A DNA stretch of 64,000 bases from Hyperoplus lanceolatus (Eukaryota; Chordata; Actinopteri; Uranoscopiformes; Ammodytidae): the NCBI GenBank assembly GCA_026929865.2, contig CM049402.1, forward strand, positions 11,161,501 through 11,225,500, in the 5' to 3' direction. The position numbers were made by a program, and so were the translations under genes. The notes below the pieces were generated by a model that worked only from the letters and a program-made list of their open reading frames with translations, was not told the DNA's origin and searched no databases. Shown piece by piece: positions 8,701 to 59,092 of the stretch. The stretch's first letter is position 1; each line of letters opens with the position of its first letter.

Positions 8701-8721
8701 TGTGCTGTCCGTGGTGCTGAA
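8701..8721 (-). promoter_or_regulatory. RE1/NRSE-like element, orphan, upstream of exon 1
   Basis: Reading the + strand, the core is GCTGTCCGTGGTGCTGAA. It matches the reverse complement of the 21-bp RE1 consensus at 19 of 21 positions (my count). RE1 is the binding site of the neuronal-gene repressor REST/NRSF. All other copies here follow an exon; this one precedes the first, 139 bp before its promoter element, with no exon upstream in the window. Confidence 0.8.
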
Positions 8722-8859
8722 ATGTAATTTCCATCTCTATTATTTCAGTTTGGCTGTTCAATAACACGTAGCTATACATATTTAGAATTGTAGTGACTGC
8801 TTAAAGGAGATTGCATTAACTGCTGCATTTTCACTGCTGTCTGCATGTTGCCCATTTTA

Positions 8860-8924
8860 CCACGTGGCGCCGCTGTTGATCCACCAGAGTCAGAAGTACT
8901 CTTTTATAGAACTAGGCCCCTCCC
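8860..8924 (+). promoter_or_regulatory. Exon 1 promoter: CTCF-like CSE plus C-rich box
   Basis: The element starts CCACGTGGCGCCGCTG, a CTCF-core-like match corresponding to the conserved sequence element (CSE) known from mammalian clustered-protocadherin promoters, though its 3' half lacks the TAGACC of most sisters. CCCCTCCC begins 57 bp after its start. The ATG of exon 1 is 237 bp from the element start. Confidence 0.7.
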
Positions 8925-9096
8925 GTTTTCAGGCGATTGGAACATTTCTTCAGTCTTTGTTTCAAAGAGAGGACGGTGGAACAAACAGAATGTTCCAGTC
9001 CTATCTTAAGCTCTCACCGGCTGAGATCTTCCATAAAAAAAATATCTGACCGTGACTAAAAGTCATATTCATGCTTTGGTGAAATTGGACAGCAAT

Positions 9097-11478
9097 ATGT
9101 TTTCGCCTTGTAGATGGAGCTATTTTGGGATATATCTAGGGCTTTTTCTACTGGATTCTTACTGGGGAACGGTCTCCGGGCAGCTCTCCTATTCCGTCTC
9201 AGAGGAGCTTAACCCCGGTACTCCTGTTGGAAATATCGCTAAGGACCTGAACCTCAATACACAGGACTTGGAACGCCGTATGTTTCAAATTGTTACTGGA
9301 TCAAAGAGAACATTCTTGGCGGTAAATCTAAAGACTGGTGTCCTGTACGTTAGTGAGAGAATAGACAGAGAGGAGCTCTGCGCAGAGGAACTTAAATGCT
9401 CAGTAAGTGTAGAAGCCGTGATAAATAACCCTTTAAAGCTTTATCGTATCGACGTAGACGTTTTAGATGTGAATGACAATGCCCCGTTGTTTACAGCCAC
9501 GTCTCAGAATTTGTATATCGCAGAGCATACTTTACCAGGAGTTAAATTTGCATTATCTGAAGCAATTGATGCAGATGTGGGGAGAAACGGCGTCAGTACA
9601 TACAAATTGAGCCAAAATGAACATTTCACATTGGCAGTGCACAAAGCAGGAGACGGTGTGTCTGCTGAGTTAGTGTTACAAAAAGCTCTAGACCGAGAGA
9701 AACAGCCTGTTATCACCATGACACTGACTGCTGTAGATGGAGGGAGTCCACCGAAATCGGGCACTTCGCAGCTTATTGTTAATGTATTAGACATTAATGA
9801 TAACATTCCATTATTCAGCGAAACGTTATACAAGACAAAAATCCGAGAAAACACGCCACTGGGCACAATAGTAATCGGTGTGAACGCCACCGATCCAGAT
9901 GAGGGCTTGAATGGCGAGATTGTGTATTCACTGAGGAGCAAAGATCAAGATCACGTACTTGATATATTTGAAATTGAGAGTGAAACGGGTGTCATTAAGG
10001 TAAAAGGCAATATAGACTTTGAAGAAAAAAAGGCTTTTGAGATACGTGTAGAGGCCAGTGATAAAGGCCAGCCTCCGATGTCTGCTTATTGTAAAGTGCT
10101 GGTAGAAGTGCTGGACCTAAACGATAATGCTCCCGAGCTCACTGTGACGTCACTGCATAGCACAGTGAAAGAGGACGCTAGTATAGGCACCGTCATTGCT
10201 CTGGTGTCCGTCCTCGATAAAGATGGTGGGAAAAACGGTGATGTGAAAATTAAAATAAAGAATGAAGTTCCACTCAAACTCGAAACTAACTACAAAAATT
10301 ATTATTCTTTGTTAGTCGACGGGCCCCTGGACAGAGAGACTACCTCTAACTACAACGTCACCATAGTCGCCACTGACAGAGGAACTCCGTCACTCTCCAG
10401 CACGAGTGTCTTTTTTATACACATTTCTGATGTCAATGATAACGCACCTCGGTTCCCAGAACCCCTAATTAACGTATACGTGAATGAGAACAGTCCAGTG
10501 GGAACAGTTATTAAAACAGTGACAGCAACTGATGCTGACGTTGAGCAGAACAGACAGGTGAGATATTCATTTTTACACAGTAGCAGTCATCTATTACCTT
10601 TATCCACAATGATAAACATCAACTCAGAAACAGGAGATATAGTCAGCCTGCAGTCTTTTAATTACGAGGAGTTAAAAACGTTTCAGTTTAAAGTTCAGGC
10701 CACAGACTCTGGTGTTCCTCCGCTCAGCAGCAACGTGACTGTGAACGTGTTAGTGCTGGATGAAAATGACAACAGTCCCGCGATACTAGCGCCCTATTCT
10801 GAGCACGGTTCTGTTAACAGTGAGAGCATCCCCTATTCTGCTGAAGCGGGATACTTTGTGGCAAAGATCAGGGCTGTAGACGCAGACTCTGGATACAATG
10901 CGCTGCTTTCTTATCACCTCTCTGAGCCTAAAGGAAATAACCTCTTCCGGATCGGAACCAGCACCGGAGAAATCAGGACTAAGAGGAGAATGAGTGACAA
11001 TGACCTGAAAACTCACCCCTTGGTGGTGTATGTTTCTGATAACGGAGAACCCTCCCTGTCAGCTACTGTGTCTATTGATGTGGTGGTGGTTGAAAGCACA
11101 GCTGACATCCAGACTCAGTTCAGACATGTGCCCATAAAGGAGGAGAGCTTCTCTGCTTTAAACCTGTATCTGCTGATCGCCATAGTGTCGGTGTCAGTGA
11201 TCTTTCTGCTGAGCCTCATCAGTTTAATAGCTGTCAAATGCCACAGGACAGACGGCAGTTTCAGCAGGTACAGCGCCCCAATGATCACCACTCATCCTGA
11301 CGGGAGCTGGTCTTACTCTAAATCTACGCAGCAGTATGACGTGTGTTTCAGCTCGGACACAATGAAGAGTGACGTAGTGGTTTTCCCCGCCCCGTATCCG
11401 CCTGTAGATGCGGAGCTCATCAGTATCAATGAGGGAGAAACTTTTACCAGAACTCAGACTTTACCCAATAAAGAAAAG
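9097..11478 (+). CDS. Protocadherin alpha-type variable exon 1
   Basis: Encodes a single-pass neuronal cell-surface cadherin part of 794 codons. In order: signal peptide (about 1-28), six cadherin repeats (EC1 about 29-128, then roughly 105 residues each to about 660) with DxNDN and DRE calcium motifs at the joints, a membrane helix near 689-712 and an 82-residue cytoplasmic stub. EC1 has the family CX5C motif (CAEELKC). GSWSYS in the stub and SVSEE at the EC1 start indicate the alpha subfamily. The open frame extends upstream to a GTG at 9052, but 9097 is the first in-frame ATG and puts the signal peptide at the N terminus. Coding ends in phase 0 at AAG|GTAAGA; the stop 21 bases beyond is intronic. 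The tail is EGETFTR. From about 10615 on it is nearly identical to all other exons. No constant exons are in the window. Confidence 0.95.
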
Positions 11479-11704: not shown

Positions 11705-11725
11705 GTCGTTGTCCATGGTGCTGAA
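11705..11725 (-). promoter_or_regulatory. RE1/NRSE-like element after exon 1
   Basis: The + strand core is TTGTCCATGGTGCTGAA; 18 of 21 positions match the RE1 consensus complement. It lies 226 bp past the exon 1 splice donor. The rest of the 585-bp spacer to the next promoter is AT-rich with nothing recognised. Confidence 0.75.
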
Positions 11726-12325: not shown

Positions 12326-14708
12326 ATGTCGACGCGGAAGCTACGGATACCTTTTGGGATTTATATAGTCGTTATTCTTTTGGATTGCTGCTTGGAAGCG
12401 GTATCAGGGCAGCTCTCTTACTCTGTATCGGAGGAGGTAAACCCTGGGACTTCTGTGGGAAATCTCGCTAAAGATCTCAATCTCAATGTTCATGATTTGG
12501 AGACCCGCATGTTTCAGATCGTTAGCGGATCAAAAAGGAAATATTTCGATGTAAATCTGAAAACTGGCTTTCTTTATGTCAATGAAAAAATCGACCGCGA
12601 GGAACTCTGTGGGAAGGCTACAAAATGTGCAGTCAGTGTAGAGGCCGTGATTAACAATCCATTGAAACTGTATCGTTTGGATATAAACGTAGTAGACATA
12701 AATGATAATGCTCCGTATTTCCCTGAGAATTTTCAGTCTCTTAACATTGCTGAAAGTACTGTGCCGGGAGGAAAATTTGGATTTATCGGCGCGTCAGATC
12801 TCGATGTTGGTAAGAATAGTGTTAGCACATACACGCTTAATCCAAATGATTATTTTTCTTTAGAGATTCACAAAGGAGGAGAGAGTGTGTCTGCGCAGCT
12901 TGTGCTCCAGAATGCTTTAGACAGAGAAAGACAAGGTACTATAAAACTCACAGTGACCGCAGTGGACGGAGGAAATCCACCCAAATCAGGGACGTCTCAG
13001 ATCATTGTAAATGTTTTAGACAATAACGACAACGCTCCAGTTTTCAGCAGTTCTTTATACAAGGCACGGATTTCTGAGAACCTAGCAATTGGAAAAACTG
13101 TAATAATTCTGAATGCAACAGACGCAGATGACGGCTTAAATGGGGAAATAGAATATTCATTGAGAAGTAAAGGTCAGGATCACGTTATAGATGTATTTCA
13201 AATTGACTCAAAATCAGGTGAAATTTCAGTCAAAGGTAAGATCGACTATGAAGAGAATCCTGCCTTTGAGATCCATGCACAAGCCAGTGACAAAGGCCAG
13301 CCTCCGATGTCAGTCGATTGTAAGGTGCTGGTAGAAGTGGTGGACCTAAACGATAACGCTCCTGAGATTACTGTGACGCCACTAATAAACACAGTAAAGG
13401 AGGACGCAGACGTAGGTACTGCTATTGCACTTGTTTCAGTGCTAGACAAAGATGGTGGAAAAAACGGTGTGGTAAAAGCTGCAATTGCAAATGATGTGCC
13501 CTTTAAATTGGACACGAATTACAAAAACTATTATTCATTGATAGTGAATGGTCTGCTTGACAGAGAGAGTCAGACGCAGTACATTGTTACTATTGTAGCG
13601 ACTGATGAAGGTACTCCACCACTCTCCAGCACCAGCATAGTGAATGTTGATGTTTCCGATGTCAATGATAACCCTCCTCGCTTCTCAGAACAGCTGGTTA
13701 ATGTCTATGTAAAAGAAAATAGTCCAGTAGGAGCAATTCTTAAAACATTGACTGCTCTTGATGCAGATATCAATCAAAATGGTCAGGTGAGCTATTCTTT
13801 TTCACAAAGCAATAGTAATGCATTGCCGTTATCAACGATGATTAACATCAACTCAGAGACAGGAGAAATAGTCAGCTTGCAGTCTTTTAACTACGAGGAG
13901 TTAAAAATGTTTCAGTTTCAAAGTTCAGGCCACAGACTCTGGTGCTCCTCCACTCAGCAGCAACGTGACTGTGAATGTATTAGTCCTGGATGAAAATGAC
14001 AACAGTCCCGCGATACTAGCGCCCTATTCCGAGCACGGTTCTGTTAACAGTGAGAGCATCCCCTATTCAGCTGAAGCGGGATACTTTGTGGCAAAGATCA
14101 GGGCTGTAGACGCAGACTCTGGATACAATGCACTGCTTTCTTATCACCTCTCTGAGCCCAAAGGAAACAACCTCTTCCGGATCGGAACCAGCACCGGAGA
14201 AATCAGGACTAAGAGGAGAATGAGTGACAATGACCTGAAAACTCACCCCTTGGTGGTGTATGTTTCTGATAACGGAGAACCCTCCCTGTCAGCTACTGTG
14301 TCTATTGATGTGGTGGTGGTTGAAAGCACAGCTGACATCCAGACTCAGTTCAGACATGTGCCCATAAAGGAGGAGAGCTTCTCTGCTTTAAACCTGTATC
14401 TGCTGATCGCCATAGTGTCGGTGTCAGTGATCTTTCTGCTGAGCCTCATCAGTTTAATAGCTGTCAAATGCCACAGGACAGACGGCAGTTTCAGCAGGTA
14501 CAGCGCCCCAATGATCACCACCCATCCTGACGGGAGCTGGTCTTACTCTAAATCTACGCAGCAGTATGACGTGTGTTTCAGTTCAGACACACTAAAGAGT
14601 GACGTAGTGGTTTTCCCGGGACCATTTCCGCCTGTAGATGCGGAGCTGATCAGTATTAACGGAGGAGACACTTTTACGCAGACTCAGACGTTGCCCAACA
14701 AAGAAAAG
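12326..14708 (+). pseudogene. Protocadherin alpha-type variable exon 2, frameshifted
   Basis: Complete in length, with a signal peptide from the ATG at 12326 (the frame extends to a TTG at 12281), class I EC1 with CX5C CGKATKC, six EC repeats, membrane helix and a donor AAG|GTAAGA at 14709. One extra C at about 13919, in the homogenised part of EC5 (near codon 532), shifts the frame. Read straight, it ends at a stop at 13991-13993, losing EC6, membrane and cytoplasmic parts. The original frame is open again from just after the lesion to the donor. The length is 3n+1, as expected for a single insertion. EC1-EC5 are closest to exon 3. The tail is unusual (PGPFPP, DTFTQTQ). A sequencing or assembly error is the alternative. 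Confidence 0.75.
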
Positions 14709-14972: not shown

Positions 14973-14993
14973 GTCGTTGTCCATGGTCCTGAA
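14973..14993 (-). promoter_or_regulatory. RE1/NRSE-like element after exon 2
   Basis: The + strand core is TTGTCCATGGTCCTGAA; 17 of 21 positions match the RE1 complement. It sits 264 bp past the exon 2 donor and only 17 bp before the inverted-repeat element at 15011. Confidence 0.7.
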
Positions 14994-15010
14994 ATTAGTT
15001 TTGTGCAGTA

Positions 15011-15991: not shown

Positions 15992-18368
15992 ATGTATTTC
16001 GTGAGCAGAACGAGCCCGTATAGGCTATATTTCGTGGCCGTGCTGCTGAATTGTTGCTGGGAAGCCGTGTCTGGACAGCTCTCGTATTCCGTCTCAGAGG
16101 AGGTAAACCCGGGGACTTATGTTGGAAATATCGCCAAAGATCTGAATCTCAATGTGCAGGATTTAGAGTCTCGTATGTTTCAGGTTGTTAGCGGATCTAA
16201 GAGAAAATACTTCGACGTAAATCTGAAAACGGGAGTTCTTTATGTCGCTGAAAGAATAGACCGAGAAGAGCTTTGTTCAAAGGCTACAAAATGTACTGTC
16301 AGTGTAGAAGCCGTGATCAACGAACCATTGAAGCTGTACCGTTTAGAGATAACTATAACAGATATAAATGACAATGCCCCTGTTTTCTCTGAGCAATTGC
16401 AATCTCTTAACATTGCTGAAAGTACTTTACCAGGGGTGAAATTTGGACTAATAGAAGCATCAGATTTGGACGTTGGCAAGAACGGTGTTAATACATACAA
16501 GCTTAGTAATAATGATTATTTTTCTTTAGAGATTCACAAAGGGGGAGATAGTGTGTCCGCCGAGTTAGTACTGCGGAAAACATTAGACCGCGAACATGAT
16601 TCAGTTATAAAACTCACACTGACTGCTGTAGATGGAGGGAATCCGTCGAGATCAGGAACCTCACAAATTATTATCAACGTTTTGGATATTAACGACAACC
16701 CTCCTATTTTCAGTAAATCTTTGTACAAAATTCAAATTCCGGAAAACTTGCCAACCGGGTCGAAAATTATCATTCTGAATGCAACAGACGCAGATGAAGG
16801 TTTAAACAGTGAAATAGAATACTCGTTGAGAAAAAAAGGGCAGGATCGTGTTTTAGATTTTTTTCAAATTGATAGTAATACCGGCGTAATTTCAGTAAAA
16901 GGTAAGATTGACTATGAAGAGAATCCTGCCTTTGAGATTCACGCACAGGCCAATGACAAAGGCCAGCCTCCGATGTCTGCTCACTGTAAGGTGCTGGTAG
17001 AAGTGGTGGACCTAAATGACAACGCTCCTGAAATCACTGTGACGTCATTACTAAACACAGTCAAGGAGGACGCAGTCGTAGGTACTGCTATTGCACTTGT
17101 TTCAGTGCTAGACAAAGATGGTGGGAAGAATGGTGCAGTAAACGTTATAATTGTAAATGATGTGCCCTTCAAATTGGACACAAATTACAAAAACTATTAT
17201 TCGTTAATGGTTAATGGTCCGCTTGACAGAGAGAGTCAGGCTCAATACAATGTAACAATTATGGCAACTGATGAAGGGACTCCACCACTCTCTAGCACCA
17301 GCATAGTGACTGTTCATGTTTCCGATGTCAATGACAACCCGCCTCGCTTCTCAGAACAGCTGGTTAATGTTTATGTAAAAGAAAATAGTCCAGTAGGAGC
17401 AATTATTAAAACTTTGGCGGCACTTGATGCAGATATTAATCAAAATGGTCAGGTGAGCTATTCTTTTTCACAAAGCAATTTCATTGCCGTTATCAACAAT
17501 GATAAATGTAAACTCAGAGACAGGAGATATAGTCAGCCTGCAATCCTTTAACTATGAGGAGTTAAAAACGTTTCAGTTTAAAGTTCAGGCCACAGACTCT
17601 GGTGTTCCTCCACTCAGCAGCAACGTGACTGTGAACGTTTTAGTCCTGGATGAGAATGATAACAGTCCCGCGATTCTCGCGCCCTATTCTGAGCATGGCT
17701 CCGTTAACAGTGAGAACATCCCCTATTCAGCTGAAGCGGGATACTTTGTGGCAAAGATCAGGGCTGTAGACGCAGACTCTGGATACAATGCGCTGCTTTC
17801 TTATCACCTCTCTGAGCCCAAAGGAAACAACCTCTTCCGGATCGGAACCAGCACCGGAGAAATCAGGACTAAGAGGAGAATGAGTGACAATGACCTGAAA
17901 ACTCACCCCTTGGTGGTGTATGTTTCTGATAACGGAGAACCCTCCCTGTCAGCTACTGTGTCTATTGATGTGGTGGTGGTTGAAAGCACAGCTGACATCC
18001 AGACTCAGTTCAGACATGTGCCCATAAAGGAGGAGAGCTTCTCTGATTTAAACCTGTATCTGCTGATCGCCATAGTGTCGGTGTCAGTGATCTTTCTGCT
18101 GAGCCTCATCAGTTTAATAGCTGTCAAATGCCACAGGACAGACGGCAGTTTCAGCAGGTACAGCGCCCCAATGATCACCACCCACCCTGACGGGAGCTGG
18201 TCTTACTCTAAATCTACGCAGCAGTATGACGTGTGTTTCAGCTCAGACACAATGAAGAGTGACGTAGTGGTTTTCCCCGCCCCGTATCCGCCTGTAGATG
18301 CGGAGCTTATCAGTATCAATGAAGGAGACACTTTTACGCGGACTCAGACTTTACCTAATAAAGAAAAG
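15992..18368 (+). pseudogene. Protocadherin alpha-type variable exon 3, frameshifted
   Basis: Starts at the ATG at 15992 with a signal peptide leading to [15 protein letters not shown]1 carries CSKATKC. The frame breaks at about 17480 in EC5 (near codon 497). Compared with exon 2, five bases are missing between the QSN and LPLSTM codons, so the straight reading stops at 17549-17551. From 17484 the normal frame runs through EC5-EC6, membrane and stub to the donor AAG|GTAAGA at 18369. The lesion differs from that of exon 2 and lies just upstream of the homogenised tract. Promoter and donor look intact, so a transcript with a premature stop is expected. The tail is EGDTFTR. An assembly error cannot be excluded. 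Confidence 0.75.
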
Positions 18369-18432
18369 GTAAGAGCATGATGGCATTTGGTACTTGGGCA
18401 CGTTAATATACGCAACTTACGTTGGGAATTTG

Positions 18433-18453
18433 GTGGGAAACTGTGGTGTTGAA
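18433..18453 (-). promoter_or_regulatory. Degenerate RE1-like half element after exon 3
   Basis: Only the CTGTGGTGTTGAA half is recognisable; 13 of 21 positions match. It is 64 bp past the exon 3 donor. It may be a decayed copy, matching the broken state of exon 3, or chance. The rest of the spacer to 19421 is AT-rich, with a poly-A-rich patch near 18818-18870, and holds no gene. Confidence 0.3.
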
Positions 18454-19692: not shown

Positions 19693-22071
19693 ATGATGCA
19701 TTTGACGAGCAGGACGAGCTCTGTGTGGATATATGTATTGGTCGTGCTGCTGGATTGTAACTGGGAAGCGGTGGCTGGGCAGCTCTCTTACTCCGTCTCA
19801 GAGGAGGTAAACCCGGGGACTGTTGTCGGAAATGTCGCTAAAGATCTCAACCTCAACGTGCAGGATTTGGAGACCCGCATGTTTCAAATCGTTGCTGGAT
19901 CGAAGAGGAAATATTTCGAGGTAAACCTAAAGACTGGTGCGCTGTACGTGAATGAGAGAATAGATCGAGAGGAACTCTGCGGAGATGAACACAAATGCTC
20001 ACTCAGTGTAGAAGCAGTAATTAATAACCCGTTAAAACTGTACCGGATTGAAATAATACTCTTAGATGTAAATGATAATTCCCCGTCATTTCAAAGCACG
20101 TCACAAGAAATCGACATTACAGAGAGCACAGCAGCAGGGGCAAAATTCCCCCTACATCAAGCTGATGATGCAGACGTCGGTAAAAATGCTGTGAATACGT
20201 ACAAGCTTAGCGAGAATGAACACTTCTCTCTCGTTGCACTTACAAGCGAGAGCGTAACTCCTGAATTACAGCTAAAGAAGGCTTTAGATCGAGAAAAACA
20301 TTCTGTGATTAGACTCGCGCTCACTGCCATTGATGGTGGCACGCCTGCTAAATCAGGTACTATGACTATTATAGTGAACGTTTTGGACATTAATGATAAT
20401 CCTCCTGTATTCAGCCAATCTCTGTACAAAGCCAGTGTGTATGAAAATGTTAAGATAAATACACCGATAATAACATTAAATGCTACTGATTTAGATGCAG
20501 GAACAAATGGACACGTGTTATATTCCTTCAGTAAAGTAGGCAGAGGAAAACAAACGGATCTGTTTGCTATAGACGAGAAAACTGGGACTATAACAAATAA
20601 GAAGAATATAGACTTTGAGGAGAATAATGCTTTTGAGATTAGAGTGCAAGCCAGTGATGGGGCTGCTTCTCCTCTCACGTCAAACGCCAAACTATTAATT
20701 GAAGTTTTAGACGTCAATGACAATGCACCGGAAATTTCAGTCACATCCCTGTTAAACACCGTGAAAGAGGACGCGTCCATTGGCACAGCAATAGCGCTTG
20801 TTTCAGTATTTGATAAAGACGCAGGGAAAAATGGGATGGTTAACTGTAAAATATCCAGTTATGTTCCCTTCAAATTAGAGTCAAATTATAAAAATTACTA
20901 TTCGTTGGTAGTGGACGGTCCTCTTGATAGAGAAAGCGCATCTCAATACAATATCAGCATCACTGCTACTGATGAGGGCAGCGCATCTCTCTCCAGCACG
21001 AGCGTTATTTATGTACACGTCTCAGATGTAAATGATAACAAACCTCTATTCACCGAAAACATAATCAATGTCTATGTGAAAGAAAACAGTCCAGTAGGTG
21101 CAGTTATTAAAACAGTTTCAGCAATTGATGCAGACATCGATCAAAATGGTCAGGTGAGATATTCACTTTTACATAATGGTAACTTATTGCCGTTATCCAC
21201 AATGATAAACATCAACTCAGAGACAGGAGATATAGTCAGCCTGCAGTCTTTTAACTATGAGGAGTTAAAAACGTTTCAGTTTAAAGTTCAGGCCACAGAC
21301 TCTGGTGTTCCTCCACTCAGCAGCAACGTGACTGTGAACGTGTTAGTCCTGGATGAGAATGACAACAGTCCCACGATACTTTCTCCATATTCTGAGCACG
21401 GCTCCGTTAACAGTGAGAGCATCCCCTATTCAGCTGAAGCGGGATACTTTGTGGCAAAGATCAGGGCTGTAGACGCAGACTCTGGATACAATGCGCTGCT
21501 TTCTTATCACCTCTCTGAGCCCAAAGGAAACAACCTCTTCCGGATCGGAACCAGCACCGGAGAAATCAGGACTAAGAGGAGAATGAGTGACAATGACCTG
21601 AAAACTCACCCCTTGGTGGTGTATGTTTCTGATAACGGAGAACCCTCCCTGTCAGCTACTGTGTCTATTGATGTGGTGGTGGTTGAAAGCACAGCTGACA
21701 TCCAGACTCAGTTCAGACATGTGCCCATAAAGGAGGAGAGCTTCTCTGCTTTAAACCTGTATCTGCTGATCGCCATAGTGTCGGTGTCAGTGATCTTTCT
21801 GCTGAGCCTCATCAGTTTAATAGCTGTCAAATGCCACAGGACAGACGGCAGTTTCAGCAGGTACAGCGCCCCAATGATCACCACCCACCCTGACGGGAGC
21901 TGGTCTTACTCTAAATCTACGCAGCAGTATGACGTGTGTTTCAGCTCAGACACACTGAAGAGTGACGTAGTGGTTTTCCCCGCCCCGTATCCGCCTGTAG
22001 ATGCGGAGCTGATCAGTATTAACGGAGGAGACACTTTTAATCGTACTCAGACTTTACCAAACAAAGAAAAG
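19693..22071 (+). CDS. Protocadherin alpha-type variable exon 4
   Basis: 793 codons. Two consecutive ATGs (19693, 19696) begin a 28-29-residue signal peptide; the second aligns with the exon 6 start. The open frame upstream to 19606 has only a TTG and is treated as 5' untranslated. EC1 contains CGDEHKC. EC1-EC4 resemble exon 6 closely, including a distinctive EC3 ([23 protein letters not shown]). Donor AAG|GTGAGT. 3' variants: TILSP, SALNL, DTLKSD, GGDTFNR. Both frame and donor are intact. Confidence 0.95.
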
Positions 22072-22542: not shown

Positions 22543-22563
22543 GGTGCTCTCCATGGTCCTGGA
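22543..22563 (-). promoter_or_regulatory. RE1/NRSE-like element after exon 4
   Basis: The + strand core is GCTCTCCATGGTCCTGGA; 16 of 21 match. It is 471 bp past the exon 4 donor, the furthest of the set. The 470 bp before it are AT-rich with nothing recognised. Confidence 0.6.
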
Positions 22564-43514: not shown

Positions 43515-45884
43515 ATGGGAAACACAGAAAATGCCTGGATTTATATTTTTGGACTGCTTTGTCTTTGTGACTGGTCTGCTTCGCAATTGTCTTACTCCAT
43601 TTCCGAGGAAGTGAACAAAGGCACCGTGGTGGGGAATATCGCAAAGGACCTGAACCTTAATGTACACGATCTGGAAACTAGGGATCTGCGTATTGTTTCG
43701 AGTTACAGTAAGACATATTTTGATGTGAATTTGCGGACCGGAAACCTCTTTGTTAACGAAAGAATAGACCGAGAGGAGCTTTGTCCGAACACTGCACAAT
43801 GCTCCCTAAAAATACAGGCTGTTTTAAATGACCCAATGAATGTACATCGCATTGAGGTCACTGTTTCAGACATAAACGACAACTCGCCGGAATTCATAGA
43901 TCAGTCTTCTTCGTTAAACATCTCCGAGTCCATGTCGCCGGGAGAACGGTACCTTCTCCCGATAGCAGAAGACGCAGATCTCGGCAGTAACTCAGTGAAG
44001 AGCTACAAGCTCAGCCAAAATGAATATTTCTCGCTTGATGTGCAGAGCGGAGGAGATCACGGTGTGTCTGCTGAGCTAGTGCTACAGAAAGCTTTAGACA
44101 GAGAGAAACTGCCGGTTATTAAACTCATTCTGACCGCTGTGGATGGAGGAAAACCTGCTAGAACGGGTACATTGCAGATACATATTAGTGTATTAGATGT
44201 CAATGATAATACACCCATTTTTAGCAAATCGCTTTATAAAGTGCGTGTGCGGGAAAATACTGCACACGGAACAGTGGTTATTAAGTTAAATGCAACCGAT
44301 TTAGATGAAGGCATGAACAGTAAGATCCTGTATTCGTTAATCAAACGAGGAAATATTGATCCCTCAAATTTGTTTAGTCTAAATTCAGAAACAGGAGAAA
44401 TCACAGTGAAGGGTACATTAGATTTTGAAGAGACTCCTGCTTATGAGGTTAGAGTTCAAGTAATGGACCAAGGCAATTTTCCTCGTAGTGCACATGCTAA
44501 ACTGCTCATAGAGATAATTGACGTGAATGACAATGCCCCAGAGATATCTGTGACGTCACTGATGACCCCAGTTAAGGAAGATGCAGAACTAGGTACTGTC
44601 GTTGCTTTGGTTACAATAAGTGATAAAGATGGAGGAAACAATGGTGCAACTAACTGTGAGGTAGTTGGGTCTGTTCCATTTAAACTAAAGTCCAACTACA
44701 AAAATGACTATTCATTAGTAGTAGATGGACCACTGGACAGAGAAAACACTCCTCTTTACAATGTCACTATTACAGCCACAGATGAAGGGAGTCCTCCTCT
44801 GTCTAGTAGCAGGGTCATTACTGTTCACGTTTCAGATGTTAATGATAACGCACCTCGATTTATGGAGTCTGTGATTCACATTTATGTGAAAGAAAACAGT
44901 CCGATAGGTTCTATTATTTATACAATAAATGCACTTGATCCTGATCTGGATGCTAATGCGAAACTGACTTACAAATTGATAGATAGTCCTCCAAGGAATT
45001 TTCCAATTTCATCAGTTTTGAACATAAACTCAGAGACAGGAGATATAGTCAGCCTGCAGTCTTTTAACTATGAGGAGTTAAAAACGTTTCAGTTTAAAGT
45101 TCAGGCCACAGACTCTGGTGTTCCTCCACTCAGCAGCAACGTGACTGTAAACGTTTTAGTCCTGGATGAAAATGACAATAATCCAAACATTCTTGCTCCC
45201 TATTCTGAGCATGGCTCTGTTAACAGTGAGAGCATCCCCTATTCAGCTGAAGCGGGATACTTTGTGGCAAAGATCAGGGCTGTAGACGCAGACTCTGGAT
45301 ACAATGCGCTGCTTTCTTATCACCTCTCTGAGCCCAAAGGAAACAACCTCTTCCGGATCGGAACCAGCACCGGAGAAATCAGGACAAAGAGGAGAATGAG
45401 TGACAATGACCTGAAAACTCACCCCTTGGTGGTGTATGTTTCTGATAACGGAGAACCCTCCCTGTCATCTACTGTGTCTATTGATGTGGTGGTGGTTGAA
45501 AGCACAGCTGACATCCAGACTCAGTTCAGACATGTGCCCATAAAGGAGGAGAGCTTCTCTGCTTTAAACCTGTATCTGCTGATCGCCATAGTGTCGGTGT
45601 CAGTGATCTTTCTGCTGAGCCTCATCAGTTTAATAGCTGTCAAATGCCACAGGACAGACGGCAGTTTCAGCAGGTACAGCGCCCCAATGATCACCACCCA
45701 CCCTGACGGGAGCTGGTCTTACTCTAAATCTACGCAGCAGTATGACGTGTGTTTCAGCTCAGACACACTGAAGAGTGACGTAGTGGTTTTCCCCGCCCCG
45801 TATCCGCCTGTAGATGCGGAGCTGATCAGTATAAATGGAGGGGACACTTTTAACCGGACTCAGACTTTACCAAATAAAGACAAG
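43515..45884 (+). CDS. Protocadherin alpha-type variable exon 11 (class II)
   Basis: 790 codons from the ATG at 43515. The 23-residue signal peptide ends LCDWSAS, then EC1 [13 protein letters not shown] with CPNTAQC. It is the close relative of exon 12; they share a unique EC4 ([21 protein letters not shown] with Asp for the Asn-Tyr of others). The junction is NKDK and the donor AAG|GTAGGC, the weakest-looking of the set. The tract has NNPNILAP and SLSSTV variants. 3' variants: SALNL, DTLKSD, GGDTFNR. Confidence 0.95.
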
Positions 45885-46303: not shown

Positions 46304-46324
46304 AGAGCTCTCTGTGGTGCTGAA
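46304..46324 (-). promoter_or_regulatory. RE1/NRSE-like element after exon 11, first
   Basis: The + strand core is GCTCTCTGTGGTGCTGAA; 17 of 21 match. It is 419 bp past the exon 11 donor; nothing is recognised in the AT-rich stretch between. Confidence 0.7.
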
Positions 46325-46530: not shown

Positions 46531-46551
46531 GGTGCTGTCCGTGGTGCTTGT
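46531..46551 (-). promoter_or_regulatory. RE1/NRSE-like element after exon 11, second
   Basis: The + strand core is GGTGCTGTCCGTGGTGCT; 17 of 21 match, with the last three positions diverged. It lies 227 bp after the first copy in the same spacer and orientation. The rest of the spacer to 46883 is AT-rich. Confidence 0.7.
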
Positions 46552-47109: not shown

Positions 47110-49488
47110 ATGTATATTCGACGGCGGAAGGAATACGTCTGGATTCACATTGCTGTGCTTCTTTGTCTTTGTGACTGGACTGTTTCCCAGTTATCCTACT
47201 CGATTTCCGAAGAGGTGAACAAAGGCACCATGGTTGCGAACATTGCAAAGGATTTAAACCTCAATATACAGGAACTAGAAACAAGGGATCTACGTATTGT
47301 TTCGGGTTACAGCAAGCAATATTTTGACGTGAATTTGCGGACCGGGAACCTCTTTGTTGACGAGAGGATCGACAGAGAAGAGCTTTGCCCGAATGTGGTA
47401 AAATGTTCGCTGAAAATACAAGCTGTTTTAAACAATCCAATGACTGCACATCGCATAGAGGTTAACGTTTTAGATATAAACGACAATTCGCCGGCTTTTA
47501 TTGAAAAAACTTATTATTTAAATATTACCGAATCATCCTTAACGGGAGAACGATATTTTCTCCCAATAGCAGTGGACGCAGACATAAGCGGCAACTCGGT
47601 AAAGAGCTACAAGCTGAGCCAAAATGAATATTTCTCGCTTGATGTGCAGAGCGGAGGAGACCACGGCGTATCTGCTGAGTTAGTGCTGCAGAAAGCTTTA
47701 GACAGAGAGAAACAGTCGATTATTACACTTCTCTTGACGGCTGTAGATGGAGGCAAACCGCCCAGATCAGGATCATTACAGATACATGTTAATGTACTAG
47801 ATGTTAATGATAATATACCCACTTTTAGCAAATCGCTTTATAAAATGCGTGTGGGCGAAAATGCTGCGCACGGAACAGTGGTCATACAGCTAAATGCAAC
47901 GGATATGGACGAAGGCATGAACAGTAAGATCCTGTTTTCGTTTTTAAAACGAGGAAATATTGATCCGTCAAATATGTTTGATCTAAATTCAGAAACAGGA
48001 GAAATCACAGTGAAGGGTACATTAGATTATGAAGAGACGCCTGCTTATGAGGTTAGAGTTCAAGCAATGGATCAAGGCACATCTCCTCGTAGTGCACATG
48101 CTAAACTGCTCATAGAGGTAATTGACGTGAATGACAATGCCCCAGAAATATCTGTGACGTCACTGATGACCCCAGTTAAGGAAGATGCAGAACTAGGTAC
48201 TATTGTTGCTTTGGTAACAGTAAGTGATAAAGATGGAGGAAACAATGGTGCAACTAACTGTGAGGTAGTTGGGTCTGTTCCATTTAAACTAAAGTCCAAC
48301 TACAAAAATGACTATTCATTAGTAGTAGATGGACCACTGGACAGAGAAAACACTTCTCTTTACAATGTCACTATTACAGCCACAGATGAAGGGAGTCCTC
48401 CTCTGTCTAGTAGCAGGGTCATTACTGTTCACGTTTCAGATGTTAATGATAATGCACCTCGATTTATGGAGTCCGTGATTCACATTTATATGAAAGAAAA
48501 CAGTCCGATAGGCTCTGTAGTTTATACAATAAATGCATTTGATCCTGATCTGGACATTAATTCAAAACTGACTTACAAATTGTTAGCTGATTCACCAAGA
48601 AATATTCCAATTTCATCCATTTTAAACGTCAACTCAGAGACAGGAGATATAGTCAGCCTGCAGTCTCTTAACTATGAGGAGTTAAAAACGTTTCAGTTTA
48701 AAGTTCAGGCTACAGACTCTGGTGTTCCTCCGCTCAGCAGCAACGTGACTGTAAACGTCTTAGTCCTGGATGAGAATGACAACAGTCCCGTGATACTTTC
48801 ACCATATTCTGAGCACGGTTCTGTTAACAGTGAGAACATCCCCTATTCTGCTGAAGCGGGATACTTTGTGGCAAAGATCAGGGCTGTAGACGCAGACTCT
48901 GGATACAATGCGCTGCTTTCTTATCACCTCTCTGAGCCCAAAGGAAACAACCTCTTCCGGATCGGAACCAGCACCGGAGAAATCAGGACTAAGAGGAGAA
49001 TGAGTGACAATGACCTGAAAACTCACCCCTTGGTGGTGTATGTTTCTGATAACGGAGAACCCTCCCTGTCAGCTACTGTGTCTATTGACGTGGTGGTGGT
49101 TGAAAGCACAGCTGACATCCAGACTCAGTTCAGACATGTGCCCATAAAGGAGGAGAGCTTCTCTGCTTTAAACCTGTATCTGCTGATCGCCATAGTGTCG
49201 GTGTCAGTGATCTTTCTGCTGAGCCTCATCAGTTTAATAGCTGTCAAATGCCACAGGACAGACGGCAGTTTCAGCAGGTACAGCGCCCCAATGATCACCA
49301 CCCACCCTGACGGGAGCTGGTCTTACTCTAAATCTACGCAGCAGTATGACGTGTGTTTCAGCTCAGACACAATGAAGAGTGATGTAGTGGTTTTCCCCGC
49401 TCCGTATCCGCCTATAGATGCGGAGCTCATCAGTATAAATGGAGGAGACACTTTCACCAGAACTCAGACTTTACCTAATACAGAGAAG
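47110..49488 (+). CDS. Protocadherin alpha-type variable exon 12 (class II)
   Basis: 793 codons. The frame is open from a GTG at 46987, but the first in-frame ATG is 47110, which gives a 26-residue signal peptide ending LCDWTVS. EC1 is [20 protein letters not shown] (VAN for VGN) with CPNVVKC. EC3-EC4 nearly match exon 11 at nucleotide level, a sign of recent duplication or conversion upstream of the common tract. SLQSLNYEE carries Leu for Phe. It ends NTEK with donor AAG|GTGAGT. 3' variants: VILSP, NSENIP, SALNL, PYPPID, GGDTFTR. Confidence 0.95.
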
Positions 49489-50365: not shown

Positions 50366-52735
50366 ATGGGCAGTGGAAGGACTAACGGGATTTTCTGTTT
50401 GCTATGGATCCTGCTTCTATGTGACTGGGCTGCTGCTCAGACATCCTACTCTGTTTCCGAGGAGGCGGACAAAGGGACTGTGGTGGGGAATCTCGCCAAG
50501 AGTTTAAACGTCAATGTCCGAGAACTGCAAACGAGGAATCTGAATATCGTGTCTGGTTACAGTAAGAAATATTTCGAGGCCAATTTTAAAACGGGGGAGC
50601 TTTATGTTAACGAGCGAATAGACCGCGAGGAGCTTTGTCCAAACACGATCAAATGCACGCTAAACCTAGAGGCCATACTGAGCGGCCCCATGGTACTCCA
50701 CCGCATCGAGGTGGTAATTGTTGATTTAAATGACAACGCGCCCAACTTCGTCGAGAACTCGTATTCCCTAAACATATCTGAACTTTCCCCTACGGGCGAA
50801 CATTTCTTGCTTCCCCTGGCTATTGATGCAGATACGGGAAGCAATTCAGTAAAGACTTATAGGCTGAGTCAAAATGAGTACTTTTCACTAGATGTACAGA
50901 GCGGTGGAGAACATGGTGTATCTGCTGAATTAATACTCTTGAAAGCTTTGGATCGTGAAAAACAAAGTGTGATTAAAGTATCACTGACGGCAGTAGATGG
51001 AGGAAAGCCTCCTAAAACTGGAAGCTTACAAATAAATGTAAATGTTCTGGATGCCAATGATAACACGCCATCATTTAGCAAAACGCTATACAAGGCAAAA
51101 GTAAAGGAAAATGCGCCAGCTGGATCATTAGTTATTCAACTGAGTGCCACTGATTTAGACGAAGGGGACAACGGGAGGCTTACCTACTCTTTTGTCAAGC
51201 GCGGAAACTTCGATCCTGCAAATGTGTTTTTAATGAATGCAGAAACCGGGGAAATCACAGTAAACGGTAATCTAGATTACGAAGCACAGTCAGCATATGA
51301 GATTCATGTTCAGGCAAAAGACCAAGGGGCTTCGCCTCGAAGTACAAATGTTAAGCTGCTGGTGGAAGTGGTTGATGTAAACGACAATGCACCGGTAATT
51401 GTGGTGACGTCACTCATGAATCCCGTTAAAGAAGATGCTGATATGGGAAGCGTTGTCGCTTTGGTGACCGTGACTGATAAGGATGGAGGAAAAAACGGCC
51501 AGACCAGCTGTAACCTTATTGGTTCTAGCCCTTTTAAACTAAATTCCAATTATAAAAATTACTACTCATTAGTTGTCGATGGACCTCTTGATAGAGAAGG
51601 TTACTCTTTTTATAATGTAACGATTACGGCTGCAGATGAAGGGACTCCGCCTCTTTCCAGCACCAGCGTTATTAATGTTCAGGTTTCTGATGTCAATGAT
51701 AACGCGCCGCGTTTTGAACAGCCAGTAATACATATTTATGTAAAAGAGAACAGTCCCTTTGGGACTAGTATTTTTACAATAACTGCAGTAGATCCTGATA
51801 TAAATGAAAACGCTAGAGTGACATACTCATTAGATGGTGACTCGAAAAGTATTTCTATAACTTCAATGTTAAACATAAACTCAGAGACTGGAGATATAGT
51901 CAGCCTGCAGTCTTTTAACTATGAGGAGTTAAACACGTTTCAGTTTAAAGTTCAGGCCACAGACTTTGGTGTTCCTCCGCTCAGCAGCAACGTGACTGTG
52001 AACGTTTTAGTCCTGGATGAAAATGACAACAGTCCCACGATACTTTCACCATATTCTGAACACGGCTCCGTTAACAGTGAGAACATCCCCTATTCTGCTG
52101 AAGCGGGATACTTTGTGGCAAAGATCAGGGCTGTAGACGCAGACTCTGGATACAATGCGCTGCTTTCTTATCACCTCTCTGAGCCCAAAGGAAACAACCT
52201 CTTCCGGATCGGAACCAGCACCGGAGAAATCAGGACTAAGAGGAGAATGAGTGATAATGACCTGAAAACTCACCCCTTGGTGGTGTATGTTTCTGATAAC
52301 GGAGAACCCTCCCTGTCAGCTACTGTGTCTATTGATGTGGTGGTGGTTGAAAGCACAGCTGACATCCAGACTCAGTTCAGACATGTGCCCATAAAGGAGG
52401 AGAGCTTCTCTGCTTTAAACCTGTATCTGCTGATCGCCATAGTGTCGGTGTCAGTGATCTTTCTGCTGAGCCTCATCAGTTTAATAGCTGTCAAATGCCA
52501 CAGGACAGACGGCAGTTTCAGCAGGTACAGCGCCCCAATGATCACCACCCACCCTGACGGGAGCTGGTCTTACTCTAAATCTACGCAGCAGTATGACGTG
52601 TGTTTCAGCTCGGACACACTGAAGAGTGACGTAGTGGTTTTTCCCGCACAGTTTCCACCTGTTGATGCGGAGCTGATCAGTATTAATGGAGGAGACACAT
52701 ATACACGGACTCAAACTTTACCTAATAAAGAGAAG
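50366..52735 (+). CDS. Protocadherin alpha-type variable exon 13 (class II)
   Basis: 790 codons from the ATG at 50366; the frame upstream begins at a TTG. The 24-residue signal peptide ends LLCDWAAA. EC1 is QTSYSVSEEADKG, with Ala for the conserved Val, and CPNTIKC. The homogenised tract shows two private changes (NTFQF, also in exon 8, and ATDFGV for ATDSGV). The tail is GGDTYTR with Tyr for Phe. Donor AAG|GTGAGT. 3' variants: TILSP, NSENIP, SALNL, DTLKSD, PAQFPP. Confidence 0.95.
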
Positions 52736-53007: not shown

Positions 53008-53028
53008 GGCGCTGTCCATGGTACTGAA
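53008..53028 (-). promoter_or_regulatory. RE1/NRSE element after exon 13
   Basis: The + strand core is GGCGCTGTCCATGGTACTGA; 19 of 21 match the RE1 complement, with the C-to-T change at the centre that is common in RE1 sites. It is 272 bp past the exon 13 donor; the AT-rich stretch between holds nothing recognised. Confidence 0.85.
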
Positions 53029-53469: not shown

Positions 53470-55848
53470 ATGGGACGTAGAGGACTAACATTCAGGATTT
53501 TGATACAAATAATAGCTTTTCTTTGTTTGTGTGATGGGGCTACAGCGCAGCTCTCGTTCTCCGTTTCCGAGGAGGTTGACAAAGGAACAGTAGTGGGGAA
53601 TCTCGCCAAGAATTTACAAGTCAACGTTCAAGAATTGGAAAAACGGGATTTACGAGTTGTATCTGGAAATTCGAAGAAATATTTCAACGTGGATTTAAAG
53701 ACCAGCGCACTTTATGTCTGCGATAGGATTGATCGTGAAGAGCTCTGCCCGAACACCGCAAAATGTTCCCTGAATATAGAAGCCATTCTGAGTCACCCAA
53801 TGCATCTGCACCGCATAGAGGTACAAATTATTGACATTAACGACAATGCACCATATTTTCGTGAACAGGAGAAGACTTTTAATATTTCTGAATCTTCTTT
53901 TACGGGGGAGAGGTATCTGCTCCCAATAGCAAACGACGCAGACACGGGCAGTAACTCGGTAAAGAGTTACAAGCTCAGTCCAAATGAGTATTTCTCACTG
54001 GACGTGCAGGGCGGCGGACAGCACAGCGAGTCTGCCGAGATGGTGCTACAGAAATCTTTAGACAGAGAGAAACAGTCCGTTATCCATCTTACTTTAACTG
54101 CTCTGGACGGAGGAAAACCTGCCCGATCAGGGACATTAAAAATAGTGGTGCTTGTTATGGATAGTAACGACAACTCTCCAGTATTCAGCCAACCTCTATA
54201 TAAGGCCCAGGTTATAGAAAATGCTCCATTTCAGACTTCCATATTGACTGTAACTGCTACAGATTTAGATGAGGGAATAAATAGTGAAATAGTGTATTCG
54301 TTTATTGAAAGGGGGGATTTCAATCCTGAAGCTTTGTTTTCAATAGACCCAGACACAGGGGAAATAACTGTGACAGGGAAAGTAGACTATGAAGAGAGTA
54401 CAGCATATGATATTCGTGTACAGGTCAGAGATAAAGGTACGCCTTCTCGAAGCGTGCATGGTAAAGTCTTAGTGGAAGTAACTGATGTTAATGACAATGT
54501 ACCTGAAATCATTATCACCTCTCTTATGAGCCCAGTTAAAGAGGATGCTGAGGCAGGCACAGTGGTAGCTTTGGTGACTGTGACTGACAACGATGGGGGT
54601 AAAAATGGTCTCACCAGTGCTAAAATTATGGGGTTGGTGCCTTTTAAACTCAAGCTTAACTACAAAAATTATTACTCATTAACAGTGGATGGATCTCTTG
54701 ATAGAGAAAGTGTTTCTCAATATAATGTCACCATCATAGCAACTGATGAAGGCAATCCGGCTCTCTCCAGCACCAGTGTTATTCCTGTGCACATTTCTGA
54801 TGTGAATGATAACGCCCCTCTATTCCCAGAGCCTTTGATTAATGTATATGTGAAAGAGCATAGTGCAGTGGGGGCTACCATCTTCACTATAAGTGCAGTT
54901 GATCTTGATATAGGAGAACATGCAAAAGTAACATATTCATTATTAGATGGCATTTCAAAAAGTATTCCCATACGTTCGATGGTAAACATCAACTCAGACA
55001 CTGGAGATATAGTCAGCCTGCAGTCTTTTAACTATGAGGAGTTAAAAACGTTTCAGTTTAAAGTTCAGGCCACAGACTCTGGTGTTCCTCCGCTCAGCAG
55101 CAACGTGACTGTGAACGTTTTAGTCCTGGATGAGAATGACAACAGTCCCACGATACTCGCGCCTTATTCTGAACACGGCTCCGTTAACAGTGAGAGCATC
55201 CCCTATTCTGCTGAAGCGGGATACTTTGTGGCAAAGATCAGGGCTGTAGACGCAGACTCTGGATACAATGCGCTGCTTTCTTATCACCTCTCTGAGCCCA
55301 AAGGAAACAACCTCTTCCGGATCGGAACCAGCACCGGAGAAATCAGGACTAAGAGGAGAATGAGTGACAATGACCTGAAAACTCACCCCTTGGTGGTGTA
55401 TGTTTCTGATAACGGAGAACCCTCCCTGTCAGCTACTGTGTCTATTGATGTGGTGGTGGTTGAAAGCACAGCTGACATCCAGACTCAGTTCAGACATGTG
55501 CCCATAAAGGAGGAGAGCTTCTCTGCTTTAAACCTGTATCTGCTGATCGCCATAGTGTCGGTGTCAGTGATCTTTCTGCTGAGCCTCATCAGTTTAATAG
55601 CTGTCAAATGCCACAGGACAGACGGCAGTTTCAGCAGGTACAGCGCCCCAATGATCACCACCCACCCTGACGGGAGCTGGTCTTACTCTAAATCTACGCA
55701 GCAATATGACGTGTGTTTCAGCTCAGACACACTGAAGAGTGACGTAGTGGTTTTCCCCACCCCGTATCCGCCTGTAGATGCAGAATTGATCAGTATTAAT
55801 GGAGGAGACACATTCAACAGAACTCAGACTTTACCAAATAAAGAAAAG
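53470..55848 (+). CDS. Protocadherin alpha-type variable exon 14 (class II)
   Basis: 793 codons from the ATG at 53470. An in-frame ATG at 53431 would add 13 residues; I prefer 53470 because of promoter spacing and a standard 26-residue signal peptide ending LCDGATA, but the first ATG remains possible. EC1 is QLSFSVSEEVDKG, with Phe for the Tyr of sisters, and CPNTAKC. EC3 ends with MDSNDNSP instead of DVNDN. Donor AAG|GTAAGG. The tract start has SDTGD. 3' variants: TILAP, SALNL, DTLKSD, PTPYPP, GGDTFNR. Confidence 0.94.
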
Positions 55849-56375: not shown

Positions 56376-56538
56376 TTTTCGTCTGGAAAGGGGTTTGTAT
56401 TTCTTTGTTCGTCGCAGCAGTACATACCATCGTCACTGTTTTAAGGGGCTCTGCCTGGATGTATCGTTATTCAGTAATGGTTCTGCTGTAGTGATTTTCT
56501 AACTACAGTCATTAAATTGTTAAGCAGACTTGGACAAA

Positions 56539-58914
56539 ATGCAACAAGGGAATGTTTTACGGCATTGGATTTATTTTTTGTTAAACGTATCTCACATATG
56601 GAGTATCGCAGCAGCACAGATTGTGTATTCTGTTGCGGAGGAATCGAGCCAGGGAACAACTGTTGGGAATTTGGCGAAGGACTTACATCTAGATGTGCAG
56701 GATTTGGAAACTAGAGGTTTTCAGATTTCAGGACCTAATGCGAGGTATTTCGAAGTAAATGTTAAGACGGGTATTCTCTTAGTGAAAGACAGAATAGACC
56801 GAGAGGAGCTCTGCTCCCGTAAAGTGAAGTGTTCGCTGGAAGTGGAAGCCATTGTGAACTCGCCGCTGAATCTCCATCGCTTTGAGGTTAAACTTGTGGA
56901 CATTAACGACAATGCACCATCTTTCCGCACTCCGGGAATTGTTTTGAACGTGTCCGAGTCCACTTTTCCTGGTGAAAGATTTACACTAGCAAAGGCATTC
57001 GATGCCGATGTCGGTAGTTACTCGGTAAAGGGCTACAAGCTGAGCCAAAATGAACATTTCACCCTGGATGTACAGAATGCTGGAGAGCCGACAATGTCCG
57101 CTGAAATGGTGCTGCATAAAACCTTAGATCGTGAGAAACAGCCAGTTATCAAACTAACCCTGACAGCTGTAGATGGAGGAAAACCTGTTAAATCAGGCAC
57201 GTTACATATCACCGTTAATGTGCAAGATGTAAATGATAATATTCCAATTTTTGACAAGCCGCTATACAAAGCCAGAGTGCCTGAAAACACTCCGCAAGGT
57301 GCGACCGTTATTTCTGTTCATGCTCAGGATTTAGATGAAGGTCTTAATGGAGATATACTCTATTCTTTTATCAATCACGACAGCGATAATGATGTTGACA
57401 AATTCGACATCAATCATCTAACGGGGGAGATTACGGTAAAGGCTGAATTGGATCACGAAAAAAGCAATGCAGTTGAAATCCGTGTCCAGGCGAAAGACAA
57501 AGGTTCAAGTCCAAGAGCATCTCACTGTAAAGTACTAGTCGAAATCACAGATGTTAATGACAACACACCAGAAATATCAGTAACATCTTTAGTCAACGTA
57601 GTGAGGGAGGATGCACCCCTGGACACAATGGTGGGACTTATAACGGTGAAAGATAACGACGCAGATAAAAATGGCATTGTTCAGGTTAGAATAGTTGATT
57701 CAGTGCCGTTTAAAATTAAAAACACGTATAAGAATCATTATTCGTTGGTTGTAGACGGTACTCTAGACAGAGAACGATCTTCTCAATATAATGTAACTAT
57801 AACAGCGACTGACGAAGGGGTCCCTCCTCTTTCTGTTACAAGTGTCATTACAGTGCACGTTTCTGATGTCAATGACAATGCACCTCGTTTTAAAGATCCA
57901 GTGATACACATATTCGTTGATGAGAACAGTCCCGTGGGCACTGTTATATATACAATACATGCAGAGGATCCGGATGGAGGTGACAATGCAAAAGTTACGT
58001 TTTCAGTAATAACCGATAACCATAAAAACAATGTAATAGGATCACTTATAAACGTCAACTCAGAAACTGGAGATATAGTCAGCCTGCAGTCTTTTAATTA
58101 CGAGGAGTTAAAAACGTTTCAGTTTAAAGTTCAGGCCACAGACTCTGGTGTTCCTCCACTCAGCAGCAACGTGACTGTGAACGTTTTAGTCCTGGATGAA
58201 AATGACAACAGTCCCGCGATACTTTCACCATATTCGGAGCATGGCTCTGTTAACAGTGAGAACATCCCCTATTCTGCTGAAGCGGGATACTTTGTGGCAA
58301 AGATCAGGGCTGTAGACGCAGACTCTGGATACAATGCGCTGCTTTCTTATCACCTCTCTGAGCCCAAAGGAAACAACCTCTTCCGGATCGGAACCAGCAC
58401 CGGAGAAATCAGGACTAAGAGGAGAATGAGTGACAATGACCTGAAAACTCACCCCTTGGTGGTGTATGTTTCTGATAACGGAGAACCCTCCCTGTCATCT
58501 ACTGTGTCTATTGATGTGGTGGTGGTTGAAAGCACAGCTGACATCCAGACTCAGTTCAGACATGTGCCCATAAAGGAGGAGAGCTTCTCTGATTTAAACC
58601 TGTATCTGCTGATCGCCATAGTGTCGGTGTCAGTGATCTTTCTGCTGAGCCTCATCAGTTTAATAGCTGTCAAATGCCACAGGACAGACGGCAGTTTCAG
58701 CAGGTACAGCGCCCCAATGATCACCACCCACCCTGACGGGAGCTGGTCTTACTCTAAATCTACGCAGCAGTATGACGTGTGTTTCAGCTCAGACACAATG
58801 AAGAGTGACGTAGTGGTTTTCCCCGCCCCATATCCGCCTGTAGATGCGGAGCTGATCAGTATTAATGAAGGGGACACTTTTAACAGAACACAGACTTTAC
58901 CCAATAAAGAAAAG
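56539..58914 (+). CDS. Protocadherin alpha-type variable exon 15 (divergent class)
   Basis: 792 codons from the ATG at 56539; the frame upstream starts only at a TTG. The signal peptide is 26 residues. EC1 is QIVYSVAEESSQGTTVG, unlike the SVSEE of the others, with CSRKVKC, and EC2-EC4 are also the most divergent (for example VVREDAPLDTMVG in EC4). In spite of this, the part from mid-EC5 to the donor is the common homogenised sequence. It is the last variable exon in the window. Donor AAG|GTAAGA. 3' variants: [35 protein letters not shown]. It could be the fish counterpart of a C-type or ancestral exon, but this is not shown. Confidence 0.94.
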
Positions 58915-59071
58915 GTAAGATGTAAACCTCCCCTTGGAGTTCATACTCCAATAGTTTTGTAACTGTTGTATACAGTATCGAAATGTTTAGCCCTGCTGGG
59001 CAGTGGAAAAAGTGTTTCCAAGTAGGCTATTTCTCTCACTAACTTTTCCTTCCCTGCTTGCGTCTGGCTTA

Positions 59072-59092
59072 GGAGCTATCCATGGTACTGAA
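59072..59092 (-). promoter_or_regulatory. RE1/NRSE-like element after exon 15
   Basis: The + strand core is GAGCTATCCATGGTACTGAA; 17 of 21 match. It lies 157 bp past the exon 15 donor with no exon following in the window, which supports linkage of RE1 to the exon on its left. Confidence 0.72.

Follow-up and report, generated by a model that had tools for sequence, protein, structure and literature searches.

The 64,000-nucleotide stretch C8:11161501-11225500 (the window; genome size 807 Mb) covers one alpha subcluster of a clustered protocadherin locus, and the spacers between its variable exons carry a series of sites resembling the binding site of REST, the repressor element 1 or neuron-restrictive silencer element (RE1/NRSE). 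It is very probable that these form a real array of canonical RE1s in teleost-type alpha spacers, through which REST would shut the exon set outside neurons, and that the sites descend from ancestral RE1s and have been kept singly. The identity of the window sites as canonical RE1/NRSE is strongly supported by their match to the consensus. Beyond the window, the array continues through alpha into gamma.

Canonical RE1 sites in the window

Sites were scored against the consensus TTCAGCACCNNGGACAGCGCC, with 19 informative positions, which was used instead of the JASPAR matrix; passages of PMC3531662 and PMC3529185 give the core 16-base NRSE consensus and the 21-base site, respectively. A previous, sequence-only reading of the window had listed 15 RE1 copies. 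All 15 coordinates hold sequence of the type described, and 13 of them score 15-18/19, whereas those at 18433 and 25650 score at the level of chance (Table 1). When chance expectation was derived from 200 dinucleotide-shuffled windows, the 13 sites scoring at least 14/19 compared with 0.72 expected per shuffled window. At a threshold of at least 15/19 there were still 13, compared with 0.05 expected; 10 of the 200 shuffles held one such site, and none scored above 15. Thus, the comparison with shuffled sequence that the sequence-only reading had proposed as a check, carried out here by consensus scoring and not with JASPAR, came out in favor of the array, and chance matching was rejected as an explanation on these numbers. 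Matches at 11-12/19 were 1.5-2.3 times commoner than in the shuffles (65 versus 28 at 12/19), which means that the shuffle background is possibly about twofold too low; this is immaterial at 15/19 and above.

The IUPAC pattern TYAGMRCCNNRGMSAG has seven exact matches in the window and two more with one mismatch, all on the minus strand and none on the plus strand. When the spacing of the two half-sites was varied across the 214-kb locus, a joined stretch spanning two alpha subclusters (A and B, of which B is the window) and running into early gamma, a gap of 2 bp yielded 39 matches, compared with 0-4 at every other gap between 0 and 13. Noncanonical gaps of 7, 8, and 9 gave one, three, and one matches (at least 14/17), two of the five overlapping canonical sites, and the reversed control gave none. 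One possible noncanonical RE1 was observed 2,877 bases upstream of the window. Across the genome, there are 487 matches to the 17-base core pattern and none to its reverse; for the 21-base consensus with up to three mismatches, there are 1341, compared with 23 for the reversed pattern. The density of the latter sites predicts 0.106 for the window, which contains 10.

Orientation and descent of the sites

All 13 window RE1s are minus-strand sites and point against transcription; the claim that all copies share a strand therefore stands, with the strand being minus when the sequence is read as RE1. In the 214-kb locus, 41 of 41 sites scoring at least 14/19 are likewise minus (the reversed-pattern control gave one). 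For alpha plus early gamma the count is 42 of 43, the sole plus-strand exception lying ∼1.6 kb upstream of the first mapped alpha exon. A uniform orientation with respect to transcription (41 of 41 sites), together with a donor distance that does not grow with spacer length in the window, is what an element of the pre-mRNA, for example, an intronic splicing signal downstream of each donor, would produce. This explanation is nevertheless very improbable. Within 20 kb of later gamma (C8:11396501-11406500 and C8:11411501-11421500), six of six sites at 15/19 or better, and one more at 14, are on the plus strand, with the exons still on the plus strand. The plus-strand exception in alpha precedes the first mapped alpha exon, and the 1341 genome-wide sites are about equally divided between the strands (630 and 711). 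Furthermore, 18 kb separate the site at 8701 from the mapped variable-exon donor before it. The first gamma site (window-relative 97336) follows the end of the variable exon before it by more than 25 kb and the last Cadherin_tail match of alpha by ∼10 kb. As the sites of later gamma are reversed and the exons are not, direction is a property of the sampled subclusters, changing somewhere between C8:11321682 and 11398352, and it is unlikely that RE1 function requires one direction. Apart from one unrelated-looking block, the later-gamma sites resemble the other sites only in the motif and at the exon edge.

The shared orientation within subclusters argues for descent from ancestral tandem copies. 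How these copies were kept is indicated by the surroundings of the sites. Among the 23 alpha sites, identity is 0.87 in the core and 0.26-0.28 in the flanks, with the boundary at the motif. In-register alignments between alpha sites extend over 22-40 bp, barely beyond the motif (exception, 8447-21780; 94 bp, 83%), and certain spacer blocks can be aligned in a shifted register or at some distance from the RE1. Such motif-only conservation points to individually retained silencers and not to young copies of exon plus RE1.

Accordingly, it is improbable that the RE1s were simply carried along by recent duplication or gene conversion of the exons and are alike because the copies are young, although two observations are in line with this. 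Four gamma sites have 761-1,020 bp of surroundings in common, RE1 included, at 81-97% identity, and the 3′ ends of the window exons are homogenized to an identity of 0.989 between −300 and −101 of the donor. However, exon identity is down to 0.89 over the final 100 bp, and beginning 7 bp beyond the donor it is 0.28; the homogenized tract ends sharply at the donor, and exon-end gene conversion therefore does not carry the RE1. Also, the alpha flanks are near chance identity on both sides of a conserved core, and RE1 variants are unrelated to exon kinship in the window (Mantel r = −0.11 for the previous and −0.02 for the next exon). Flank divergence and the drop in identity past the donor largely refute a young-copy origin for the window. 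Neither does RE1 sequence track exon relatedness in alpha A by the same test; with alpha A and B pooled, a weak correlation was obtained (r = 0.11; p = 0.048 for the previous and 0.061 for the next exon). In gamma, RE1s do track exons (next exon, r = 0.45, p = 0.0004; previous exon, r = 0.20, p = 0.048), as do all sites pooled. The proposal that exon plus RE1 is the duplicating unit thus describes the recent gamma copies but not the window, where flanks cannot be aligned, RE1s do not track exons, and the homogenized tract stops at the donor.

An origin of each site by independent point mutation, under selection for REST control and without common descent, would account for the variable RE1 positions and the unalignable alpha flanks. 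We consider it unlikely, as random origin gives both orientations, in contrast to 42 of 43 minus sites in alpha plus early gamma. Also at odds with it, 26 of the 41 sites carry A at position 20, for which the consensus has C, a count in which recent gamma copies figure several times. In mammals, RE1s are known to reside within transposable elements, and repeated insertion of a dispersed repeat bearing an RE1 could in principle have populated the spacers. However, the alpha sites share almost no flank past the motif and repeated insertion is not expected to yield a single orientation; judged from flank alignments and orientation, this origin is very improbable. Descent from ancestral RE1s, with each site retained singly, remains the preferred account.

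A duplicate locus on C13 (C13:22870001-22920000, 50 kb) contains three variable exons and constant-exon matches; the fugu Pcdh1 locus, as given in passages of PMC1852091, likewise has three variable exons, and it is from this resemblance that the genome is taken to be that of a teleost. The 50 kb sampled contain no RE1 at 15/19 or better, and the single 14/19 match was equaled by one match in the control. Half-site matches of at least 14/17 were absent at the canonical gap, whereas gaps of 4, 7, 8, and 9 had one match each (control, zero); the duplicate locus may therefore carry a noncanonical RE1. From these contrasts, a broader but doubtful idea can be put forward: RE1 polarity could be a heritable mark of the subcluster (alpha and early gamma minus, later gamma plus, none canonical at the duplicate). 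Spacer arrays would then have been built at least twice, or one site been inverted, independently of the mammalian coding-exon arrays, with canonical REST control kept on one locus copy. If true, the duplicate locus would be a natural test of the role of REST in protocadherin choice. Neither subcluster-wise RE1 orientation nor the duplicate-locus contrast is described among the literature matches listed (titles, beginnings of abstracts, and passages), and both may be unreported.

Variable exons and placement of the RE1s

The window contains 15 large exons, all on one strand and each terminating at a splice donor (Table 1). Cadherin domains and a protocadherin-type cytoplasmic domain were found in both window exons examined (2 of 15), and the top matches of one window exon among solved structures were protocadherins (Protocadherin-10, gamma B4, and Pcdha7). 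Cadherin_tail matches at C8:11239742 and 11248681, 14 and 23 kb past the window, were taken as the alpha constant exons and a third on C8, at 11478074, as the gamma constant exon; two further matches are on C13. Upstream of the window lies alpha A, with 12 mapped exons plus one more exon, and downstream lie one C-type-like exon, so labeled from position and divergence, and then 15 mapped gamma exons. The C-type-like exon is 69.6 kb from the window start (beyond the window) and has no RE1 within 10 kb; it is preceded by ∼10.6 kb without a mapped exon (window 59093-64000 and further). From 59072 to the first gamma site, no RE1 was found at 14/19 or above.

The reading frames of B2 and B3 (window 12281-14723 and 15992-18380) are broken, by decay or by assembly error; outside the window, too, several exons have no complete open frame. 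The RE1s adjoining these two exons (11705 and 14973) contain GGACAA, which deviates from the consensus. For 12 of the 15 window exons, the best forward CTCF-like match lies 273-358 bp upstream of the mature start; as it has 2-4 mismatches and no chance control, it was used as a rough promoter mark only (330 bp).

None of the 41 locus RE1s lies inside an exon, as the human-type coding-exon NRSE (site a) does. They are positioned in spacers, and in this respect (9 of 14 window spacers) resemble the fugu-type NRSE, which is reportedly located in the 5′ intergenic region. For bounded spacers shorter than 6 kb, which leaves out 8701, 59072, and 97336 (gap of more than 6 kb or no mapped donor), occupancy is 8 of 11 in alpha A, 9 of 14 in the window, and 13 of 14 in early gamma. 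Two of the nine occupied window spacers hold two sites, and one further site each precedes the first and follows the last exon. Every one of the 15 window exons adjoins at least one spacer with an RE1, and to this extent the near one-per-exon array that had been claimed is found, but not every spacer is occupied. In alpha, the 8 spacers that lack a site are shorter than the 17 that have one (Mann-Whitney p = 0.011).

The 11 sites within the 14 window spacers begin 144-647 bp past the donor; 46531 thereby exceeds the 64-471 bp that the sequence-only reading had given for all copies except the first. A fixed place in the repeat unit, also proposed there, was not borne out: between the donor and a promoter limit set nominally at 330 bp upstream of the mature start, the distribution is compatible with an even spread (Kolmogorov-Smirnov [KS] p = 0.19). 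Over the full spacer from donor to mature start, the distribution leans toward the donor half (KS p = 0.004), which is expected if the promoter end is occupied. Nonetheless, the distance to the donor is the steadier one in the window. It does not vary with the length of the spacer (rho = −0.19, p = 0.58), whereas the distance to the next exon rises with spacer length (rho = 0.83, p = 0.0015), which favors donor-side placement. In alpha A, most sites (8 of 10) are found 537-900 bp upstream of the next mature start, and for all 38 sites in spacers shorter than 6 kb, both distances correlate with spacer length. Taken together, the results on anchoring are mixed.

On C2 (C2:3538301-3602400), a stretch of 64 kb was observed to contain five similar units, in one of which an open frame appears Ig-like on visual inspection. 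All five share a 17-base RE1 core, identical in sequence and orientation, and have, ∼19 bp beyond it, what we take to be a CTCF-like motif.

Table 1. Variable exons of the window and sites listed as RE1 (window coordinates; scores out of 19 informative positions; distances from the preceding splice donor).
Feature	Position	Strand	Remarks
RE1	8701..8721	-	17/19; contains 16-mer TCAGCACCACGGACAG (zebrafish REx1); before the subcluster's first exon
Variable exon B1	9181..11478	+	mature start to donor
RE1	11705..11725	-	17/19; 227 bp
Variable exon B2	12410..14708	+	broken reading frame
RE1	14973..14993	-	16/19; 265 bp
Variable exon B3	16076..18368	+	broken reading frame
Listed site, not counted as RE1	18433..18453	-	11/19, chance level
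Variable exon B4	19780..22071	+	mature start to donor
RE1	22543..22563	-	15/19; 472 bp
Variable exon B5	23088..25385	+	mature start to donor
Listed site, not counted, perhaps a decayed RE1	25650..25670	-	13/19, chance level
Variable exon B6	26586..28877	+	mature start to donor
RE1	29021..29041	-	18/19; 144 bp; contains REx1 16-mer
Variable exon B7	30215..32512	+	mature start to donor
RE1, first of close pair	32931..32951	-	16/19; 419 bp
RE1, second of close pair	32983..33003	-	16/19; 471 bp
Variable exon B8	33528..35834	+	mature start to donor
Variable exon B9	36568..38865	+	mature start to donor
RE1	39124..39144	-	16/19; 259 bp
Variable exon B10	40235..42532	+	mature start to donor
RE1	42851..42871	-	16/19; 319 bp
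Variable exon B11	43584..45884	+	mature start to donor
RE1	46304..46324	-	15/19; 420 bp
RE1, shares spacer with 46304	46531..46551	-	15/19; 647 bp
Variable exon B12	47188..49488	+	mature start to donor
Variable exon B13	50438..52735	+	mature start to donor
RE1	53008..53028	-	18/19; 273 bp
Variable exon B14	53548..55848	+	mature start to donor
Variable exon B15	56617..58914	+	mature start to donor
RE1	59072..59092	-	16/19; 158 bp past donor of the subcluster's last exon; next exon ∼10.6 kb downstream

Proposed REST control and known systems

Silencing of the exon set outside neurons by REST is the likely function of the array and the best reading of its sequence. In non-neuronal cells and progenitors, REST on the spacer RE1s would recruit corepressors, and the neighboring variable-exon promoters would be shut as a set, each site serving the promoters to both sides. 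Loss of REST in neurons would free the promoters, and choice among them would then be made by the usual CTCF/enhancer system. As to the history of the array, ancestral RE1s would have been copied along with the multiplying exons and then retained one by one under selection, while the surrounding spacers diverged and some sites were lost or doubled.

Several points weigh against this proposal. Five of the 14 window spacers have no RE1. Six sites have a G at position 15 (22543, 32931, 32983, 39124, 42851, and 46304) and three have four mismatches (22543, 46304, and 46531), which makes their affinity uncertain. The core identity among alpha sites is inflated, as the sites had been selected by score, and the number of sites is therefore the stronger evidence. 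A search for the rest gene with a 30-position Pfam model gave no match here, and none in the controls either. Finally, the idea that one site serves the neighboring promoters is taken over from fugu, in which, as attributed to Tan et al, genes without an NRSE of their own reportedly rely on that of a neighbor. No two empty window spacers are adjacent, which fits such reliance but is not significant (0.13 by our own arithmetic).

Experimental precedents exist for elements of this kind. Zebrafish REx1 has exactly the sequence of the 16-mer at 8705 and 29025, and according to passages of PMC3531662, REx2, in which REx1 is joined to a second NRSE, suppresses non-neuronal expression in zebrafish, with rest knockdown de-repressing 3 of 10 REx2 lines. 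The REx elements are, however, synthetic and placed at the promoter, and the stable-line results concern the two-site REx2 (PMC3531662). Passages of PMC3529185 likewise describe tandem-NRSE repression in zebrafish as REST-dependent, and in Xenopus, deletion of the NRSE turned Pcdh constructs from neural to ubiquitous expression (passages of PMC3601302, in which NRSEs are noted for the Pcdh clusters of fugu, mouse, and human).

The principle of REST control in protocadherin clusters is already described in pufferfish and mammals, and the present array opens no new kind of mechanism. The sequence-only reading, which mentioned only scattered NRSEs in mammalian clusters, was incomplete in this respect: passages of PMC8096226 describe one NRSE per alternate alpha exon of human PCDHA, bound by REST in vitro, and promoter NRSEs are reported from fugu. 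The fugu Pcdh cluster (Tan et al, 2010, as cited in passages of PMC3601302) resembles the present locus as a teleost Pcdh cluster with multiple RE1s, which are located at promoters, whereas the Pcdh NRSEs of mammals are in coding sequence. The human PCDHA/PCDHG sites a, b, and c (passages of PMC8096226) resemble it in the tandem array with an NRSE per alternate alpha exon, and differ in lying inside the variable exons. Also, the human C-type exons each hold one NRSE, unlike the C-type-like exon here. The NRSE of the mammalian HS5-1 enhancer (PMC8096226) is alike in placing the alpha cluster under REST control; its half-site spacing is noncanonical, and the alpha-gamma interval here holds no equivalent at gaps of 7-9. 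The sampled duplicate locus without a canonical RE1 (15/19 or better) offers a comparison within one genome. In a fish-type genome, the near per-exon protocadherin REST sites sit in spacers, whereas those of mammals sit in coding exons, which suggests that the control logic may outlive the individual sites.

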